Notes: generated from the sequence alone by a model not told the origin. Positions 50,368-59,073 are shown, counted from the stretch's first letter. The stretch: DNA of 64,000 nucleotides from Balneolia bacterium (GCA_022565795.1 JAIUMA010000008.1:1-64000); one strand, 5' to 3'. A program made the numbers and translations.

Positions 50368-51093
50368 TCAGCCTGCAGATGCTGCTGCATCGTACATTTC
50401 GGCTACCTTTTCCCAGTTTACAACGTTCATAAAGTTCTCTACGTATTCGCCGCGTCTGTTTTGGTAGCGAAGGTAGTAGGCGTGCTCCCATACGTCAACC
50501 ATGAGAAGCGGACGTGTAGCCCAAAGCGTAAGGTCACTCTGTCTTTCAGCCTGATGAATAACCAGATTACCGCTGTTGGGTTCGTATGACATGATGCCCC
50601 ATCCGCTGCCTTCAACAGCGCCTGATGCCGCCTTGAAATGGCGCTTAAAACCATCGAAGCTTCCAAAAGAACGGTTGATGGCGTTTCTGAGGGTGCGGTC
50701 AGACGGCTCTCCGCCTCCGTTCGGGCCCATAACCTCCCAAAACATGGCGTGAAGAAAATGTCCGCCGCCGTGGAAAGCCGTTTCGCGGCTCCAGTGCTTC
50801 ACAAGAGAGAAATCATCGCTCTCGCGTGCTTCAGCCAGCTTTTCGAGCGCATTATTTAGTCCGTTCACATAACCTTGATGATGGCGGCTGTGGTGCAATT
50901 CCATAGTCTGTGCGTCGATATACGGCTCCAGTGCATCATAGCTGTAATTAAGTTCAGGAAGGACATACTCTCCGTCTCTGAAAGTGTCTGCGGCTACGCT
51001 TGCGGCGAAAGAGTTTGCTGGCATACCTAAACCGGCAGTACCAAGCAAGGCGGCTCCCGCCAGTGACTTCTTTAAGTATTCTCTTCGTGTCAT
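50368..51093 (-). CDS. Exported Fe/Mn superoxide dismutase with Tat signal
   Basis: 241 residues: an N-terminal twin-arginine signal (MTRREYLKKSLAGAALLG, then hydrophobic GTAGLGMPANSFAAS) and a mature Fe/Mn dismutase of about 200 residues. Metal-ligand motifs are present: MELHHSRHHQGYV, HFLHAMFW and DVWEHAYY. The Tat signal implies folding with its metal in the cytoplasm and export to the periplasm. It removes superoxide near the envelope. Fe and Mn forms are not separable by eye. Transcribed alone, with terminator at 50311. Confidence 0.93.
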   Translation of the reverse strand: MTRREYLKKSLAGAALLGTAGLGMPANSFAASVAADTFRDGEYVLPELNYSYDALEPYIDAQTMELHHSRHHQGYVNGLNNALEKLAEARESDDFSLVKHWSRETAFHGGGHFLHAMFWEVMGPNGGGEPSDRTLRNAINRSFGSFDGFKRHFKAASGAVEGSGWGIMSYEPNSGNLVIHQAERQSDLTLWATRPLLMVDVWEHAYYLRYQNRRGEYVENFMNVVNWEKVAEMYDAAASAG

Positions 51094-51312
51094 GACTGTA
51101 GGATTTAAGAGTAATTAATTCCGAGTTAGCAGTGAATTACAGTATCAAATAAGGCATTAAACGCCGGAATCATTCCGTAAAAGGTTAAGGTTAAGTCTTT
51201 TAACAATCAAATGGTCTTGTGCATGCCTGTTCATGTATGCCTCTTGTATCACTGCGGGCCAAATACGTACATTGTTTATATACTATCAGAAAACCGCTTA
51301 CAGTGTCATGAA

Positions 51313-52515
51313 ATGAAAAAAAACGGAAGAAGAAGGCGTGTTCCCAAAATTGGTTTAGCCTGCGCGGGCGGAGGAATCGAAGGGGCGGTTTATGAAATCG
51401 GGGCGTTATGTGCGCTGGAAGAAGCTATTGAGGGACTTAGTTTCTCAAATGCCCATGTGTATGTTGGTGTAAGCGCCGGTGCCATCATCACGGCCAGCCT
51501 TGCTAACGGGATAACTCCGCGCCAGATGAGCCGTGCGATATTATCTGCTCAGCACGATGTGCACCCGATTACCCCATCCACCTTCTATAGTCCGGCCTAT
51601 CGCGAGTACTTCAGCCGGGCCGGACATATTCCGCATACCATTGGCTCTATGGTGTGGGGCTACATCCGGCATCCCGGTGATATCAGCCTCGGAGGTTCGC
51701 TATCGCGGCTGACAGAGCTCCTGCCCGTTGGTGTATTCGACAATACCCCGATTCGCGACTACATGAAGCTTAACTTTAGCTATGAAGGCCGTACCGATGA
51801 CTTCCGGGAGCTAAAAACGAGACTTAGAATTGTGGCAACGGATCTGGATTCCAGCAAGACCGTTGTTTTCGGCTCGCCCGGCTTCGATGATGTACCGGTT
51901 AGCCTTGCGGTGCAGGCGAGTACAGCTCTTCCCGCTGTCTACACCCCGGTACGCATTAATAACAGAAACTATATTGATGGCGTGGCTCAGCGTACGGTTC
52001 ATGCCAGCGTAGCCATGGATGAAGGCGCTGACCTCACCATCTGCGTGAATCCGATTGTACCCTATGAAGCGCTGGAAGATGCTGAGTCTGTTCTTAAAGA
52101 GATGTTGATGGAGCGCGGACTCCCGGCCGTATTGTCACAGACGTTTCGCACGATGATTCACTCCAGAATGAATGTGGGCATTAATCGCTATAAACAGGAG
52201 TATAAAGATCAGGATATCATCGTGATTGAACCTGATTCAAAAGACTATCGAATGTTTTTTACAAATATTTTCAGCTTTTCATCAAGAAAAGAAGTGTGTA
52301 ATTATGCCTATCAAAGTACACGCCTTCATCTTAAAAAAAATGCCGACGAAATTAACGCTATCCTCAATAAATACGGGCTTTTTTTGAATGAAACTTCGCT
52401 TAGGGATGAACTTAAATCTCTTTACGACAACAGGTATCGGAATACAGGAGAGAAAACGGTATCGGACTTGTCTATCACACTGAAAAAACTGGATATGGTT
52501 CTGGATGATATGTGA
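51313..52515 (+). CDS. Patatin-like phospholipase
   Basis: 400 residues from ATG 51313, just before the conserved start (MKKNGRRRRVPKIGLACAGG); a reading from 51211 would add a hydrophobic non-conserved leader. Patatin dyad: oxyanion-hole GGGIEGAVYEIGAL (19-31), nucleophile S54 in GVSAG, and D222 of the YIDG motif. Cytoplasmic-looking, no signal. Cleaves acyl chains from phospholipids. It precedes three outer-membrane paralogues by 161 bases; a functional link is not visible. Confidence 0.88.
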   Translation: MKKNGRRRRVPKIGLACAGGGIEGAVYEIGALCALEEAIEGLSFSNAHVYVGVSAGAIITASLANGITPRQMSRAILSAQHDVHPITPSTFYSPAYREYFSRAGHIPHTIGSMVWGYIRHPGDISLGGSLSRLTELLPVGVFDNTPIRDYMKLNFSYEGRTDDFRELKTRLRIVATDLDSSKTVVFGSPGFDDVPVSLAVQASTALPAVYTPVRINNRNYIDGVAQRTVHASVAMDEGADLTICVNPIVPYEALEDAESVLKEMLMERGLPAVLSQTFRTMIHSRMNVGINRYKQEYKDQDIIVIEPDSKDYRMFFTNIFSFSSRKEVCNYAYQSTRLHLKKNADEINAILNKYGLFLNETSLRDELKSLYDNRYRNTGEKTVSDLSITLKKLDMVLDDM

Positions 52516-52676: not shown

Positions 52677-53867
52677 ATGCGTTATTTATCTCTTACGTTA
52701 ATACTTGCGTTAACCGTATGTATTTCAACACTCCTCAATACACAAACAGCTTTTGCCAGCCAGGATGGTGACACTGGATTTATCATCGATTTAAGAGGTG
52801 AAAGGGTTGATGGCTTTTTCCCTGAAATGAGATCCTTCGATCGTGCAACGGCTATTTTATTTATTCCGGAAGGCGAGACAGTAGCGCAAGAGCTAACCGC
52901 AGATGATTTCCGCTCTGCAGAGTTTGCCACTGGTGAAGTATTCCGTGCATTTCCGGAATCAGTATCAAATGAAGAGGCTCCGGCAGTAATCGGCCAAAAA
53001 ATTCACGACAGTGATATCAGTTTGTATGTTGCCGAGCCTTTTCCACGAGAGCGGTACTTCTTTGCTATAAACCGTGCCGGCAGCCCGGTGTTTATCAGCC
53101 CGAATCGCTACATTATTCAGCTTCGTTCTATCTTTGGTGAATGTGGTACCGTAGTTAGAGAGTACAGCGATATTGCTCAAAACTATACCCCGGGTTACAT
53201 GATGCGTATTTTCCAGGAATACGACAGATGTATGGGCGTGGAAGATGATGTAACGCGTCGTTTTGGCACCGATCTTTATCGTATTAAGTTTGGTGTAATT
53301 GGCGGTCCGTCAAATTCTAAGGTTAATCAGTCGAGCCCGATAGATATATTCAGAAACAACGATTATATATATACAATTGACTATATGGTGGGCATATTTG
53401 CAGATATTCGTCTGCAGAGAAGCTCTATTTTTGTCCGCCCTGAAATCAACTATATGAAGGTTACTTCTGAGGCATCAGGTTTTGATATAGTTAGAAATGT
53501 GGACCAGCAAGCCACCGCAGAACTCGAAATGATAACGCTTGAATTACCGGCAAGATATGAGTTTGGGTTTTGGACTGTCAGACCATATTTAGGCGGTGGT
53601 CTTTCAGTGGCCTATATTTTCAATGAAGATGTATTGATTACCGATACAACCGCAGCTGGAGATGTATTTACAGCCAGGGATATCAATCTAAGCACAAACA
53701 TTTCTCCGGGGTTTCATGCTGTGGCAGGAACGCGGTTTCATGAACTGCTTGGGAGTTTTGATTTATTTACAGAGGTCCGCTACAGATACGCCTATTCCGA
53801 CGAAAAAAGGTTTAATGCACTCAGTGGTATATCAGCCTTCAATTTCCTGGTTGGGATTAGCTTCTAA
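52677..53867 (+). CDS. Outer-membrane barrel paralogue 1 of tandem array
   Basis: 396 residues. Signal peptide (1-27, AFAS), an N-terminal beta-rich domain (about 35-195), a linker and a C-terminal PorT-like barrel domain (about 215-396) ending in a strand with F (NFLVGISF). The barrel half (KFGVIGG ... SKVNQSSPIDIFRN ... RPEINYM ... DLFTEVRYRYAY) matches paralogue 2 closely, whereas the N-terminal half differs from both others. Role unknown. It does not share the upstream block seen before paralogues 2 and 3. Confidence 0.82.
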   Translation: MRYLSLTLILALTVCISTLLNTQTAFASQDGDTGFIIDLRGERVDGFFPEMRSFDRATAILFIPEGETVAQELTADDFRSAEFATGEVFRAFPESVSNEEAPAVIGQKIHDSDISLYVAEPFPRERYFFAINRAGSPVFISPNRYIIQLRSIFGECGTVVREYSDIAQNYTPGYMMRIFQEYDRCMGVEDDVTRRFGTDLYRIKFGVIGGPSNSKVNQSSPIDIFRNNDYIYTIDYMVGIFADIRLQRSSIFVRPEINYMKVTSEASGFDIVRNVDQQATAELEMITLELPARYEFGFWTVRPYLGGGLSVAYIFNEDVLITDTTAAGDVFTARDINLSTNISPGFHAVAGTRFHELLGSFDLFTEVRYRYAYSDEKRFNALSGISAFNFLVGISF

Positions 53868-53904
53868 GTATGAGCTTTAAAACCATGAGCATCGTGTGAG
53901 CTGC

Positions 53905-54005
53905 TTGTGTGATTTTCAGTATCTTTGGGCTCATTTCCAAAACAGGTCAATCACACAAACGCTCATAGTGCTGGTATATATCTATTCAAAACAAAGCAGT
54001 AGAGC
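53905..54005. promoter_or_regulatory. Conserved upstream block with 10-bp inverted repeat, copy 1
   Basis: About 100 bases, nearly identical to 55226-55326 (about 8 differences). Contains TTGTGTGATT (53905-53914) and its complement AATCACACAA (53949-53958), 34 bases apart. Between them is TATCTTTG (53920-53927), a match to the TAnnTTTG -7 promoter box. So a promoter framed by an operator-like dyad, or a leader hairpin. The stretch is also open in the reading frame of the gene, so partial coding cannot be ruled out. Confidence 0.6.
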
Positions 54006-54006
54006 C

Positions 54007-55188
54007 ATGCGTCTGTTTACTTTTTCTCTTCTTCTGCTGGTGGTCTCAGCAGGCTCAGCTTACGCTCAGTCTTCCGCAGATTCTGTAACCGGTAAACTTA
54101 TCACTACTTCTGCCGATACCCTTTACGGCAGTATTCTGCTCGGGGATCAGTACGACCATTCATGGCAGGTACGCTTTCGCGAAAGCGGGGCAAATGACTA
54201 TCAGACGTACGGTCCGGATGAGGTGCACATGTACGACAAAGACGGCAGCTTCCGATACTTCAGCGTGGAAGGTGATTTTGAAGACTACGGGCTTCGGACC
54301 GTATTTATCCGGGAAGACATCGGTGGTGAATTAACACTTTACTCCACCATGGTATCGCGGGAGGAGGCTGCTTTTTTTGTTGGAACAAGGGATGGCCGCC
54401 TGATTTATCTGCAAAGCGGGTTTTATATCGACCAGCTCCGAAGTATATTTTCGGGCTGTAATGAATTTCTGCGCGGCGGAGAACGAGTGAGCCGCAGATA
54501 CCGGCTGACACACGAAGGAATGTATAGTGTATTCACCAGCTATTATGAATGTGCTGATTCAGAAGCTCAATGGAACGTGGAGCCCCGGGGTGTGCATCGC
54601 ACAACAAAATTTGGTGTTATCGCAGGAGCCTCTTACTCAAAAGCTAACCAGTCCAGCCCTATTAGCATCTTTCGGAATGTAGATTATGGGTATACGCTTG
54701 ATTATCTGGCAGGTGTATTTCTTGATATACGTCTTCGGAACACCGGCTTATTCGTACGACCGGAGCTAAACTATATGTACATTAGTTCTGAAGTAACCGA
54801 TTTTGATGCATCAAGAAATGTGGAGAAATTCGCCAGAGCTGAAGTGCACATGATATCCATCGAAGCACCATTCAGGAAAGAGTTTGAATATAGCAATACC
54901 CTGCCTTATTTCGGAGGCGGTGCTTCTGTAGGGTACATTATCGATGAAAATGTCACCCTTACCGAAACCTTCTCAGGCGGTACGGTAGCCAACCAAAATG
55001 AAGTTAGGCTACACACTTATTTTACTCCCGGATTTAATTTAAAAGCTGGCATGCGCTTTGAAGAACTTTTCGGAGACTCTGATCTTTTTACAGAAATTCG
55101 TTACCGGTATGCCTTTACCGACGATCGGAGTTCGAGTGCCCTTAATGGAATCAGGGCTTTTAATTTGATGGTGGGTATAACCTTTTAA
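54007..55188 (+). CDS. Outer-membrane barrel paralogue 2 of tandem array
   Basis: 393 residues from ATG 54007, which begins a good signal peptide (MRLFTFSLLLLVVSAGSAYAQ); the open frame extends to 53896. The N-terminal domain (about 22-190: SVTGKLITTSADTLYGSILL, FRYFSVEGDFED, IDQLRSIFSGCNEFLRGGE) is nearly identical to paralogue 3. The C-terminal barrel (about 200-393, KFGVIAGASYSKANQSSPISIFRN ...) is close to paralogue 1. Thus a mosaic of its neighbours. Role unknown. Confidence 0.82.
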   Translation: MRLFTFSLLLLVVSAGSAYAQSSADSVTGKLITTSADTLYGSILLGDQYDHSWQVRFRESGANDYQTYGPDEVHMYDKDGSFRYFSVEGDFEDYGLRTVFIREDIGGELTLYSTMVSREEAAFFVGTRDGRLIYLQSGFYIDQLRSIFSGCNEFLRGGERVSRRYRLTHEGMYSVFTSYYECADSEAQWNVEPRGVHRTTKFGVIAGASYSKANQSSPISIFRNVDYGYTLDYLAGVFLDIRLRNTGLFVRPELNYMYISSEVTDFDASRNVEKFARAEVHMISIEAPFRKEFEYSNTLPYFGGGASVGYIIDENVTLTETFSGGTVANQNEVRLHTYFTPGFNLKAGMRFEELFGDSDLFTEIRYRYAFTDDRSSSALNGIRAFNLMVGITF

Positions 55189-55225
55189 GACTACTTCTGA
55201 AAACCAGTTGCATCATATGAGCAGT

Positions 55226-55300
55226 TTGTGTGATTTTCAGTATCTTTGGGCTCATTTCCAGAACAAGTCAATCACACAAACGCTCATAGTGTTGGTATAT
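55226..55300. promoter_or_regulatory. Conserved upstream block with inverted repeat, copy 2
   Basis: Second copy of the block at 53905. TTTGTGTGATT and AATCACACAAA (55225-55235, 55270-55280) form an 11-bp inverted repeat around TATCTTTG (55241-55248). Similarity to copy 1 continues into the gene start, to about 55326. Together with copy 1 it shows duplication including control sequence. Confidence 0.6.
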
Positions 55301-56545
55301 ATGTTTTTAAACCAAAGCAGCAGAGTTATACGCCTGCTCATGCTCCCCTTAATTCTGCTGTTGGTTTCAGCAGGTACGGCTCATTCGCAATCTTCTCAGG
55401 ATTCGGTAACAGGCAAGCTCATTACAACAAGCGCCGATACCCTCTATGGCAGCATTCTCCTCGGGGATCAGTACGACCATTCGTGGCGGGTGCGCTTCCG
55501 TGAAGAAGGTGCCGAAAGCTATATCATATATCGCCCGCATGAAGTGTTTATGTATGAAAAAAACGGCAGCTTTAGATACTTCAGCGTAGAAGGTGATTTT
55601 GAAGACGACGGCCTGCTTACCGTATTCATGCGTGAAGACATCAGAGGAGATATTACCTTATACTCAACCAAGTTAACCAGAGACAGGGCTGCTTTTTTAG
55701 TAAGAGAAAGGGACGGACGTCTTTCTTACCTGCAAACTTTATTCTATATCGATCAGCTTCGAAGTATTTTTGCCGGCTGCAATGAATTCCTGCGCGGCGG
55801 GGAGCGCATAAGCCGCAGATACAGACTCACGCACGAAGGAATGTACAGTGCCTTTGCCAGCTATTACGAGTGTGCCGAAAGCGAAGCCCGGTGGGCTGTT
55901 GAACCAGAAGAGACATCTCGCAAAACTCGATTTGGGGTAACGGCAGGCTTTAATACGAGCAACATGCGTATTACCGGTTCCAACAATATTTATCGTGGTG
56001 TTGCATTCGACTATGTACCTGGATATACGTTTGGCGTTTATCTTGATATCCCAGTGTTCTCGAAAAACTTCTTTTTCAAACCCGAGCTATTATTCACATC
56101 CCGGGGAGGGGAAGCTTCGGTACCGTTCCCACTACCAAATCCCCCCGCATTGCTTTTAACAGACGACGAGATTGAGGGTAGTTTCCGATATTTGATGTTT
56201 AACTTTCCATTACGCTATGAAACGTCCCTACTCGGAGTAAACCCCTACATCTCTGGCGGTGGAATAATTGGTATTCTGGTAGGCAGAAACGCTACGGTTA
56301 ACCGACTTACGCTGCCTTTGGATAATGACCCTGATGCTGAAGCTGAGATTATTGAAAATGATTTATTCCAGTTCTACAACGACATTTCACTCGGGTTAAA
56401 TCTGGGGCTGGGCGTACGTATGCCAATCGGGTCGGTTGACTTATTCACGGAAGGACGCTATACCCGAATCTTTTCGAATCTCGACGATAGTGTTGATAGC
56501 TTCAGAACAACCGCGCTGGAAATTCTGGTAGGCTTCTCTTTTTAG
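55301..56545 (+). CDS. Outer-membrane barrel paralogue 3 of tandem array
   Basis: 414 residues from ATG 55301 (MFLNQSSRVIRLLMLPLIL, cut near AHSQ); the upstream frame opens at 55208. The N-terminal domain is nearly identical to paralogue 2 (SVTGKLITTSADTLYG, FRYFSVEGDFEDDG, IDQLRSIFAGCNEF, ISRRYRLTHEGMYSAF), but the C-terminal barrel (about 215-414) is unlike both and has its own loop with Pro-rich FPLPNPPALL. Ends in an outer-membrane-type strand (LEILVGFSF). So the N-module and barrel have been exchanged. Role unknown. Confidence 0.82.
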   Translation: MFLNQSSRVIRLLMLPLILLLVSAGTAHSQSSQDSVTGKLITTSADTLYGSILLGDQYDHSWRVRFREEGAESYIIYRPHEVFMYEKNGSFRYFSVEGDFEDDGLLTVFMREDIRGDITLYSTKLTRDRAAFLVRERDGRLSYLQTLFYIDQLRSIFAGCNEFLRGGERISRRYRLTHEGMYSAFASYYECAESEARWAVEPEETSRKTRFGVTAGFNTSNMRITGSNNIYRGVAFDYVPGYTFGVYLDIPVFSKNFFFKPELLFTSRGGEASVPFPLPNPPALLLTDDEIEGSFRYLMFNFPLRYETSLLGVNPYISGGGIIGILVGRNATVNRLTLPLDNDPDAEAEIIENDLFQFYNDISLGLNLGLGVRMPIGSVDLFTEGRYTRIFSNLDDSVDSFRTTALEILVGFSF

Positions 56546-56616: not shown

Positions 56617-59073
56617 TTAAAAGTTGAGCGTTACTTGCGCCAGCACGTTCCGCTCTGCCTGCGGATAGTAGTAGTTGAAGCGCTGCATTTCGCCCCCGGA
56701 AACAAATCCGAACGTGTAGCCATTGGTCTCATACAGCTCGTTAAAGACATTATTAATCTGGAACGAGCTTGTCATAGATTTAACCAGTGGAATCCTGGTA
56801 GTTGTGTAGCTCAGGCGCAGGTCGGTAACGAAATACGGGTCGATAGAGCGGTCGCGGCTGGATGTGTTGTCCAGATACTGACGTGAAACAAACTGGCTCA
56901 TCAAATCAGCAGAGAAGCCACGGTGAGAAAACCGGAATTGCGATGCCGAAATAACGTTGGGTGACAATGCAATATCGGTGTTTTCATAAATGACGCTTTC
57001 CTGAATTCCGGTATCGAAGTTATCGATGAATTCGGTGTATTCATCAATTTTGTTCTGGCTGAACGTTACATTCCCGCTCCACTCAAGCCAGGGAAGGAAG
57101 CGGTAGCCACCCTCAAGCTCAACACCGGCACGGTAGCTATCGGGCACGTTGGTACGAATAGCCTGACCAACATCATTGATTTCACCGGTTAGAATAAGCT
57201 GGTCATCATAAAGCATATAGTAGAGATTTGCGCCAAAAAATCCTCGGCCAAATTCGCCCCTGTAGCCGGCCTCAAGGTTATACAGTGTTTCCTTGTTCGG
57301 ACGAGAATCGGGCGTTGAGCGTGTGTACTCCCGGCGTGTTGGCTCTTTGCCGGCAACCGAGAAAGAGGTGTACAGACGCTGATTAAGCTGTGCACCAAAA
57401 CGATAAACGAGTCCGGCTTTAGGATTGAAGAACCAGAGCTCATCATCCTGCGTAACGTTGCTCAAGTCGCGGTCGAACCCAAGGAAGCGATAATAAATAC
57501 GGCGAACCTGGGCATCACCGTAAACCGTGAACTGGTCGGTGAGGTTGTAGCTTAGCTTGGCATATACGTTTCCGTCGGTTTTGAAACCGTTGTTGTCGTA
57601 ATAGCGCTCGCGGATATCGCTGTCGCCGGCAAACCTTGCCCAGATAACTTCACCAAAGTGGTCGCCGTCATACTCGTTATATCCGCCGCCTGCTACGAGA
57701 GAAAAGCGATCCTGATTCCATTCGGTAGATGCTACGAAACCGTAGAAATGGTTATCCAGCCAGCGACGACGTATAATATCTGAACGATCGATAATCTCAT
57801 CACCAATTATAATCGGATCAATCTGATAGCTGCTAAGGCGGTCGTTGGCACGGAACTCCTCGAAGTAGCCGCGTCCGTAGGTGTAGTGAAGCGATGCATT
57901 GGCCAGCCAGATGTCGGTCAGGCGGTAGGAGTAATGAAGCTGATAATGATCCTGACGATAGTTATCGGTTTGGTTATCGTAGGTGAATTCATTCATCCGT
58001 CGGTTGTTCTCCAGTTCCGACTCCGGTACGCCGTTCCAGGCCTGGTATGTCTGCTCACGCCCGCTAAGTACGTTTATTTTCAGCAGGCTGCGCTCGCCAT
58101 AACGGCTTCCTGTTAAGGCGTAGGATGAAAGGTCTGAAAACGCACGGTCGATGTATCCGTCGGACTCAATCTTAGACAGGCGCGCGTCGAACGACCAGCC
58201 GTTGTCCAGAAGTCCGGTACCGGCCAGGATATTATGCCTGCGGGTGTTATAGCTTCCAACGGCATTCGTAACCGTGGCATATGGATTCTGATTGAGGCTT
58301 CCCGTTTGAATGTTTACGCTTGCCCCAAAGGCAGCCTGACCATTTGTTGATGTTCCAACACCGCGCTGAATCTGCAGGTTTTCAATAGATGAAGCAAAAT
58401 CGGGCATATTCACCCAAAATACACCGTGTGATTCAGAGTCGTTAAGCGGAATTCCGTTTACAGTTACATTGATGCGGGTAGGATCCACGCCGCGAATGCG
58501 AATTCCGGTATAGCCAATTCCGGCACCAGCGTCAGAAGTTGAAAGCACAGATGGCGCCATCTGAAGCAGAAAGGGCAGATCCTGACCAAGATTACCCTCC
58601 TCGATTTCTTCACGGGTAACGTTGGTGAAGCTCATCGGAGTGGATTCATCAACTCTGAGCCCGGATACGATAACGTCATCGCTCAGGAAAGCATCAAAAT
58701 CGAGATAAATGGACAGGTCGGATGTTTGTCCGGAACGGATACGAAGTTCACGGCTTTGGTAGCCAACGTAGCTTACTTCAATCCGCCGGGCATCGTTTGG
58801 GCGGAGCGTCAGCTCAAAGTATCCACTGTCATTGGTGGATGTTCCGTTTGTAGTATTGGCCTGAAGAACGGTGGCGCCAGGAAGCGGCTCCTGGGTTCTG
58901 GAGTCCATTACCGTCCCGCTAATGCGCGTTTGCGCCTCTGCCTCTTCGACAGTAAAAAGCAGTGTGAAGGTTAACAGTAGACAAAACGCCCCGGAGAGAA
59001 ACCGGAATCTTGTTTTTGGTTGACTGCCAAAGGCAACACGTTCAGTCTGCCCGGCTGTTGTAAAAAGTGACAT
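56617..59073 (-). CDS. TonB-dependent receptor, riboswitch-controlled (probable thiamine receptor)
   Basis: 818 residues. Signal segment near 30-47, carboxypeptidase-D-like N-terminal domain (ISGTVMDSRTQEPLPGATVL ... GYFELTL, about 52-125), plug (about 140-260: FTNVTREEIEEGNLG, IRIRGVDPTRINVTVNG) and a 22-strand barrel ending in VLAQVTLNF. Imports a substrate across the outer membrane with TonB energy. A complete TPP riboswitch upstream on the same strand makes thiamine, its phosphates or precursors the likely ligand; such riboswitch-receptor pairs are known in Bacteroidetes. ATG follows AGGAGG by 6 bases. Confidence 0.9.
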   Translation of the reverse strand: MSLFTTAGQTERVAFGSQPKTRFRFLSGAFCLLLTFTLLFTVEEAEAQTRISGTVMDSRTQEPLPGATVLQANTTNGTSTNDSGYFELTLRPNDARRIEVSYVGYQSRELRIRSGQTSDLSIYLDFDAFLSDDVIVSGLRVDESTPMSFTNVTREEIEEGNLGQDLPFLLQMAPSVLSTSDAGAGIGYTGIRIRGVDPTRINVTVNGIPLNDSESHGVFWVNMPDFASSIENLQIQRGVGTSTNGQAAFGASVNIQTGSLNQNPYATVTNAVGSYNTRRHNILAGTGLLDNGWSFDARLSKIESDGYIDRAFSDLSSYALTGSRYGERSLLKINVLSGREQTYQAWNGVPESELENNRRMNEFTYDNQTDNYRQDHYQLHYSYRLTDIWLANASLHYTYGRGYFEEFRANDRLSSYQIDPIIIGDEIIDRSDIIRRRWLDNHFYGFVASTEWNQDRFSLVAGGGYNEYDGDHFGEVIWARFAGDSDIRERYYDNNGFKTDGNVYAKLSYNLTDQFTVYGDAQVRRIYYRFLGFDRDLSNVTQDDELWFFNPKAGLVYRFGAQLNQRLYTSFSVAGKEPTRREYTRSTPDSRPNKETLYNLEAGYRGEFGRGFFGANLYYMLYDDQLILTGEINDVGQAIRTNVPDSYRAGVELEGGYRFLPWLEWSGNVTFSQNKIDEYTEFIDNFDTGIQESVIYENTDIALSPNVISASQFRFSHRGFSADLMSQFVSRQYLDNTSSRDRSIDPYFVTDLRLSYTTTRIPLVKSMTSSFQINNVFNELYETNGYTFGFVSGGEMQRFNYYYPQAERNVLAQVTLNF

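Follow-up and report, generated by a model that had tools for sequence, protein, structure and literature searches.

Within a 64,000-nucleotide window of a Balneolia bacterium genome (GCA_022565795.1 JAIUMA010000008.1:1-64000), three genes, here called p1, p2 and p3, stand in tandem on the + strand, each with an N-terminal module followed by a C-terminal barrel. Their similarities raise the question of whether the middle gene was put together from its two neighbours and, if it was, by what kind of event. The three genes are flanked by a patatin-like gene, which also marks the locus in relatives, and by a TonB-receptor-like gene. The features are as follows.

51211 to 52515 (likely start 51319), + strand: patatin-like phospholipase, left neighbour (PF01734, 78 bits; 71–89% amino acid identity in G001 to G005)
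52677 to 53867, + strand: p1, an ORF with signal peptide, p1-type N module (approximately residues 27–203) and p1-type barrel (from 53286)
53286 to 54606, + strand: copy A of a 1,321-bp unit, running from the p1 barrel through the intergenic leader to the end of the N module of p2 and including the p2 signal peptide
53868 to 54006, + strand: leader upstream of p2, whose inverted repeat, TTGTGTGATT...AATCACACAA, encloses a TATCTTTG box; fold z −1.91
54007 to 55188, + strand: p2, the hybrid gene, with p3-type signal peptide and N module (54007–54606) and p1-type barrel (54607–55188)
54567 to 54630, + strand: fusion region, with the best-scoring breakpoint after p2 residue 200 (54606/54607), within the linker before a conserved [KR]FGV patch
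54607 to 55927, + strand: copy B of the 1,321-bp unit, running from the p2 barrel through the intergenic leader to the end of the N module of p3 and including the p3 signal peptide
55189 to 55327, + strand: leader upstream of p3, with a second inverted repeat and TATCTTTG box; the likely p3 start, 55301, falls within it; fold z −3.88
about 55301 to 56545, + strand: p3, the core member of the family
56617 to 59073, − strand: TonB-dependent-receptor-like protein, right neighbour, adjoining the array in G001, G002 and G003 at 81–89% amino acid identity

The product of 56617–59073 is one that we take, from its sequence and general knowledge, to be TonB-dependent-receptor-like. Longer listed ORFs with starts at 53896 (GTG) and 55208 (TTG) begin inside the intergenic leader; the likely start of p2 is the ATG at 54007 and that of p3 the ATG at 55301. 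The p3 codon matching the position of the p2 ATG is ATA, suggesting that the p3 start was probably shifted upstream to 55301. Also in the window, a superoxide-dismutase-like protein (50368–51093) has an N-terminus, MTRREYLKKSLAGAALLG, that resembles a Tat export signal by eye, which suggests a secreted enzyme.

The original prediction held that p2 and p3 share their N-terminal domain, that p1 and p2 share their barrel, and that uniform divergence, with no sharp change at about residue 195, would speak against shuffling. The amino acid identities bear out this pattern. In the N module, p2 and p3 are 77% identical, as against about 20–21% for p1/p2 and 22% for p1/p3; in the barrel, p1 and p2 are 54% identical, as against 27% for both p2/p3 and p1/p3. 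Divergence is not uniform: in windows along the proteins, identity shifts abruptly at p2 residue 200, a point that corresponds to the end of the predicted linker between N module and barrel. A breakpoint scan over the informative residues (n = 200) gave 117 p3-like to 5 p1-like residues on the left of the breakpoint and 12 to 66 on the right, a split matched by none of 20,000 shuffles. Trees of the two parts showed the same switch, with p2 grouping with p3 by N module (95/94) and with p1 by barrel (84/90), and in AU tests the opposite placements were rejected, that of p2 with p1 in the N-module tree at p = 1.0e-6 and that of p2 with p3 in the barrel tree at p = 2.4e-8. It is thus well supported that p2 is a real hybrid gene, with the front half of the following gene and the back half of the preceding one. 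The N modules of p2 and p3 had been described as almost identical, a wording that their divergence does not bear out, since 27% of nucleotides differ (73% identity) and dS is about 1.9.

The similarity extends beyond what had been described before, as it also covers the intergenic leader. Copies A and B of the 1,321-bp unit abut head to tail and, at an offset of 1321, match at 904 of 1321 positions (68.4%) ungapped, with zero indels, so that the intergenic DNA was copied along with the coding halves and in the same register; other offsets gave 25.3 ± 1.3% identity, with a maximum of 28.1%. Within the unit, nucleotide identity is 62% in the barrel, 82% in the leader and 72% in the signal peptide and N module. 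Beyond it, identity in the same register is 20–45% just to the left and 33–57% just to the right, and gapped alignment of the flanks gave 41% for the N modules of p1 and p2 and 45% for the barrels of p2 and p3. The array therefore reads p1N-[p1C-leader-p3N]-[p1C'-leader'-p3N']-p3C, and p2 spans the joint of the two copies. Both parents flank it, in the order parent of the 3' half (p1), hybrid (p2), parent of the 5' half (p3). Just such a structure is expected from one tandem duplication whose end points lay in the p1 and p3 linkers.

We therefore consider that a single tandem duplication, turning an ancestral p1-p3 into p1-p2-p3, explains the whole array, with a probability of roughly 0.87. 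The starting state would have been a two-gene array, p1-p3, in which one duplication with both end points in N-module/barrel linkers, that of p1 and that of p3, produced two head-to-tail copies, each of 1,321 bp, of the segment made up of the p1 barrel, the leader and the signal peptide and N module of p3. The joint would then have become the new gene p2, with the leader, signal peptide and N module of p3 and the barrel of p1. The duplication itself probably came about through unequal exchange or slippage during replication, at the short conserved stretch that codes for [KR]FGV. Besides these codons, p1 and p3 today share little at the joint, so that, judged from present-day sequences, short-homology exchange or slippage is likelier than a long homologous exchange. 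The recombination between neighbours that had been proposed can thus be specified as one duplication of p1 barrel, leader and p3 N module.

The two leaders (53868–54006 and 55189–55327) are 82% identical without an indel, whereas the linked N modules differ at 57% of fourfold-degenerate sites; the leader has changed much less than synonymous sites have, suggesting that it is probably constrained. Each carries an inverted repeat around the promoter-like TATCTTTG box (53890–53975 and 55211–55296). The consensus of the Bacteroidetes −7 element is TAHHTTTG (PMC6847099), and the box in the leaders fits it. Similar foldable leaders, with different arm sequences, precede p3 in G002, G004 and G005; a leader of this kind was not seen in G001 or G003. 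Three other readings of the leader were rejected. As a protein-coding N-terminal extension, it shows little third-position bias (3/4/6 vs 32/24/91 in the N module) and its frame is lost in G002; as a dispersed genomic repeat driving recombination, it fails because the motif has only two close matches genome-wide, which are both local copies; and as a known RNA family, it has no Rfam match. From this arrangement, p2 probably inherited the promoter region of p3, which would place a p1-type barrel under the p3 promoter together with the p3 N module, and p2 would be expressed from p3's regulatory sequence.

The protein halves were characterized by profile search and structure modelling; solved relatives were also sought by sequence, and no credible one came up. 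All three C-terminal halves exceeded the curated cut-off of 27 bits for PF13568 (OMP_b-brl_2): p1 at residues 202–372 (31.0 bits), p2 at 198–372 (42.8 bits) and p3 at 198–385 of the sequence from 55328 (41.6 bits). The claim that p3 has a different barrel thus holds for its divergence, at 27% identity to p1 and p2, and not for its family, which is the same PF13568. Against the T9SS PorT/SprT equivalog NF052311 (cut-off 125 bits), p3 scored 13.8 bits, and p1 and p2 gave no match. The p3 model (mean pLDDT 85; 12-sequence alignment) showed a signal helix, an N module rich in beta structure with helices at its C-terminal end, a low-confidence linker at 202–206, a first barrel strand at 210–224 and eight long strands after residue 209. 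The top PDB matches of the barrel model were Ail, OmpX, OmpW and NspA, and the C-terminal half is accordingly predicted to be an eight-stranded OmpX/OmpW-like outer-membrane barrel.

The N module was modelled alone with a pLDDT of 90 and a pTM of 0.85. It had no Pfam or NCBIfam match, and its fold search of the PDB gave no hit at E ≤ 0.001 (best 0.083). The module (54064–54606; 55385–55927) has an invariant Cys pair, and distant copies of it are present in further families of the order and phylum. Because it precedes an eight-stranded barrel whose C-terminus ends in Phe, the module is predicted to be a folded domain of the periplasm rather than of the surface, which makes it unlikely to be the part that varies. 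In the proposed scheme the eight-stranded barrel of p2 would lie in the outer membrane and its N module on the periplasmic side, so that p2 would pair a p1-type outer face with the periplasmic partner(s) of p3.

Relatives were searched for the same array in a different order, and only plain p3 or p1-p3 was found. The p3 gene is present in all five genus relatives (G001 to G005) and in one other genome of the family. In G001, G004 and G005 the locus holds a single gene of p3 type, and in G003 patatin, p1 and p3 are contiguous. In G002, the closest relative, p1 and p3 lie on two contigs overlapping by 121 identical nucleotides inside the N module; if the contigs are joined there, the arrangement is likely p1-leader-p3. 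No gene combination other than p3 alone or p1-p3 occurs at the locus in the five genus relatives. The modules had been called swapped and exchangeable, a description that goes beyond one novel and ancient combination.

The duplication is old, judged by synonymous sites near saturation. In separate N-module and barrel trees, the G002 orthologues branch outside both the p2N+p3N and the p2C+p1C pairs, and a p2-type barrel was not found elsewhere in G002. A collapsed second copy could be concealed at the contig break of G002, which falls inside the N module. The AU test did not reject p2C with the G002 p1C (p = 0.12), so the event may be older than the G002 split, with p2 lost afterwards. A duplication later than that split is likely rather than proven. 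The end branch of p2 is longer in both trees (0.21 vs 0.11 and 0.63 vs 0.19), as expected of a new copy. Divided by the mean dN to the G002 orthologue, the paralogue dN comes to about 0.61 in the N module (0.174/0.29) and about 0.52 in the barrel (0.353/0.69), suggesting that both halves are of similar relative age, as a single event predicts.

The genes of the array evolve fast. To G002, dN is 0.52 for p1 and 0.21 for p3, against 0.065–0.071 for patatin, superoxide dismutase and the adjoining receptor, so that p1 is 7–8 times and p3 about 3 times faster than immediate neighbours; p1 and its G002 orthologue are 45% identical in amino acids, and the adjoining patatin gene is 89% identical. Between species, the predicted outer loops of p1 orthologues are 12% identical and the strands 45%, whereas between p1 and p2 of the same genome the divergence is even (loops 49%, strands 57%). 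These figures agree with a degree of external pressure acting on the barrel overall, without showing that the hybrid came into being for surface variation.

Such variation is what a recurrently recombining locus, of the kind formed by the Helicobacter pylori bab or Treponema tpr genes, would provide, and tandem outer-membrane barrels, the fast p1 and the scant identity of its outer loops are in keeping with one. The array holds, however, a single old hybrid, with no further combinations in five genus relatives; recent exchange tracts were not found in them either, and near-saturated synonymous sites speak against recent exchange between the copies, whose longest identity is about 35 bp, in the leader (by eye). 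Programmed shuffling or phase variation was rejected on the finding of one combination only and no short tandem tract. A recombining surface-variation locus is accordingly very improbable, and repeated shuffling, phase variation or immune escape finds no support. The array came about by ordinary duplication and divergence of genes rather than through a programmed switch.

A more serious competitor, still an unlikely one, begins with a full copy of p1 (or p3), after which a conversion tract from the neighbour replaced the 5' part with the leader, or the 3' part. Similarity is indeed higher in the leader and in parts of the N module than between the barrels, and fourfold sites differ less between the copies of the N module (0.57) than between those of the barrel (0.77), which could mean later conversion of the N half; the orthologues differ in the same direction, more weakly (0.64 vs 0.72). 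Against it, this course needs at least two events and tract ends that fall exactly at the ends of the head-to-tail unit, the dN-based relative ages of the halves are similar, and the intermediate is absent from the relatives examined. Divergence of one family at different domain rates, with no recombination, has in its favour that, in ordinary tandem pairs of the wider family, the barrel as a rule diverges more than the N module. In a control genome of another order (G272), ordinary tandem pairs had N/barrel identities of 0.48/0.38 and 0.43/0.28, the N module being more alike in each without a switch of partner; two such pairs lie side by side there (L065:5872-13211). The p1/p2 pair reverses this order (N 0.20, barrel 0.54), rate differences cannot place p2 nearest p3 in one half and nearest p1 in the other, the AU tests reject this reading in both halves, and the alignment of the 1,321-bp unit refutes it, leaving it a negligible chance. 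An equally minute chance attaches to mis-joining of p1 and p3 reads into p2, which a draft genome of 145 contigs might invite: the copies differ at about 32% of positions, far more than assemblers merge, and p2 has an intact frame with its own substitutions throughout.

The single duplication leaves an unusually readable record, in which one can still see both parents, the hybrid, the copy of the control region and relatives without the duplication, and in which the joint falls on a domain linker. The array also points to a conserved leader and to an outer-membrane family whose N module has neither a Pfam entry nor a solved fold relative; it does not establish a surface-variation system. As a speculative and rather doubtful extension, leader and N module might form a portable expression-and-docking cassette that recruits a fixed periplasmic partner, with lineages rewiring the attached barrel through linker-breaking duplications.

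The formation of a new gene by tandem duplication is a well-known kind of event, and this array is a new instance of it. In hybrid genes that arise by tandem duplication or unequal crossing over, the parents flank the hybrid made at the joint and the intergenic region is copied too. The p1-p2-p3 array shares with this general class the flanking parents and the copied intergenic region; it differs in that the p2 joint lies between parents now about 22–27% alike in protein, and exactly on a domain linker. Like PorT-like outer-membrane barrels of PF13568, the three proteins have C-terminal halves above the family cut-off; unlike them, they carry the extra N module without a Pfam match, and they are not the T9SS PorT/SprT equivalog. 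In Helicobacter pylori, the bab chimeras (babAB, babBA, babBC) arise by gene conversion between loci, are polymorphic among isolates and undergo CT-repeat phase variation (PMC4552749). Both systems have hybrids of outer-membrane paralogues in which a 5' control region is joined to the body of another paralogue, whereas p2 is one fixed, ancient tandem-duplication joint with no repeat tract. The chimeric tpr alleles of Treponema (tprGI, tprGJ) vary among closely related strains (PMC3656149). These too are hybrid barrel-protein genes within a paralogue family with variable predicted outer loops; unlike in tpr, both parents and the hybrid here coexist side by side, widely diverged.
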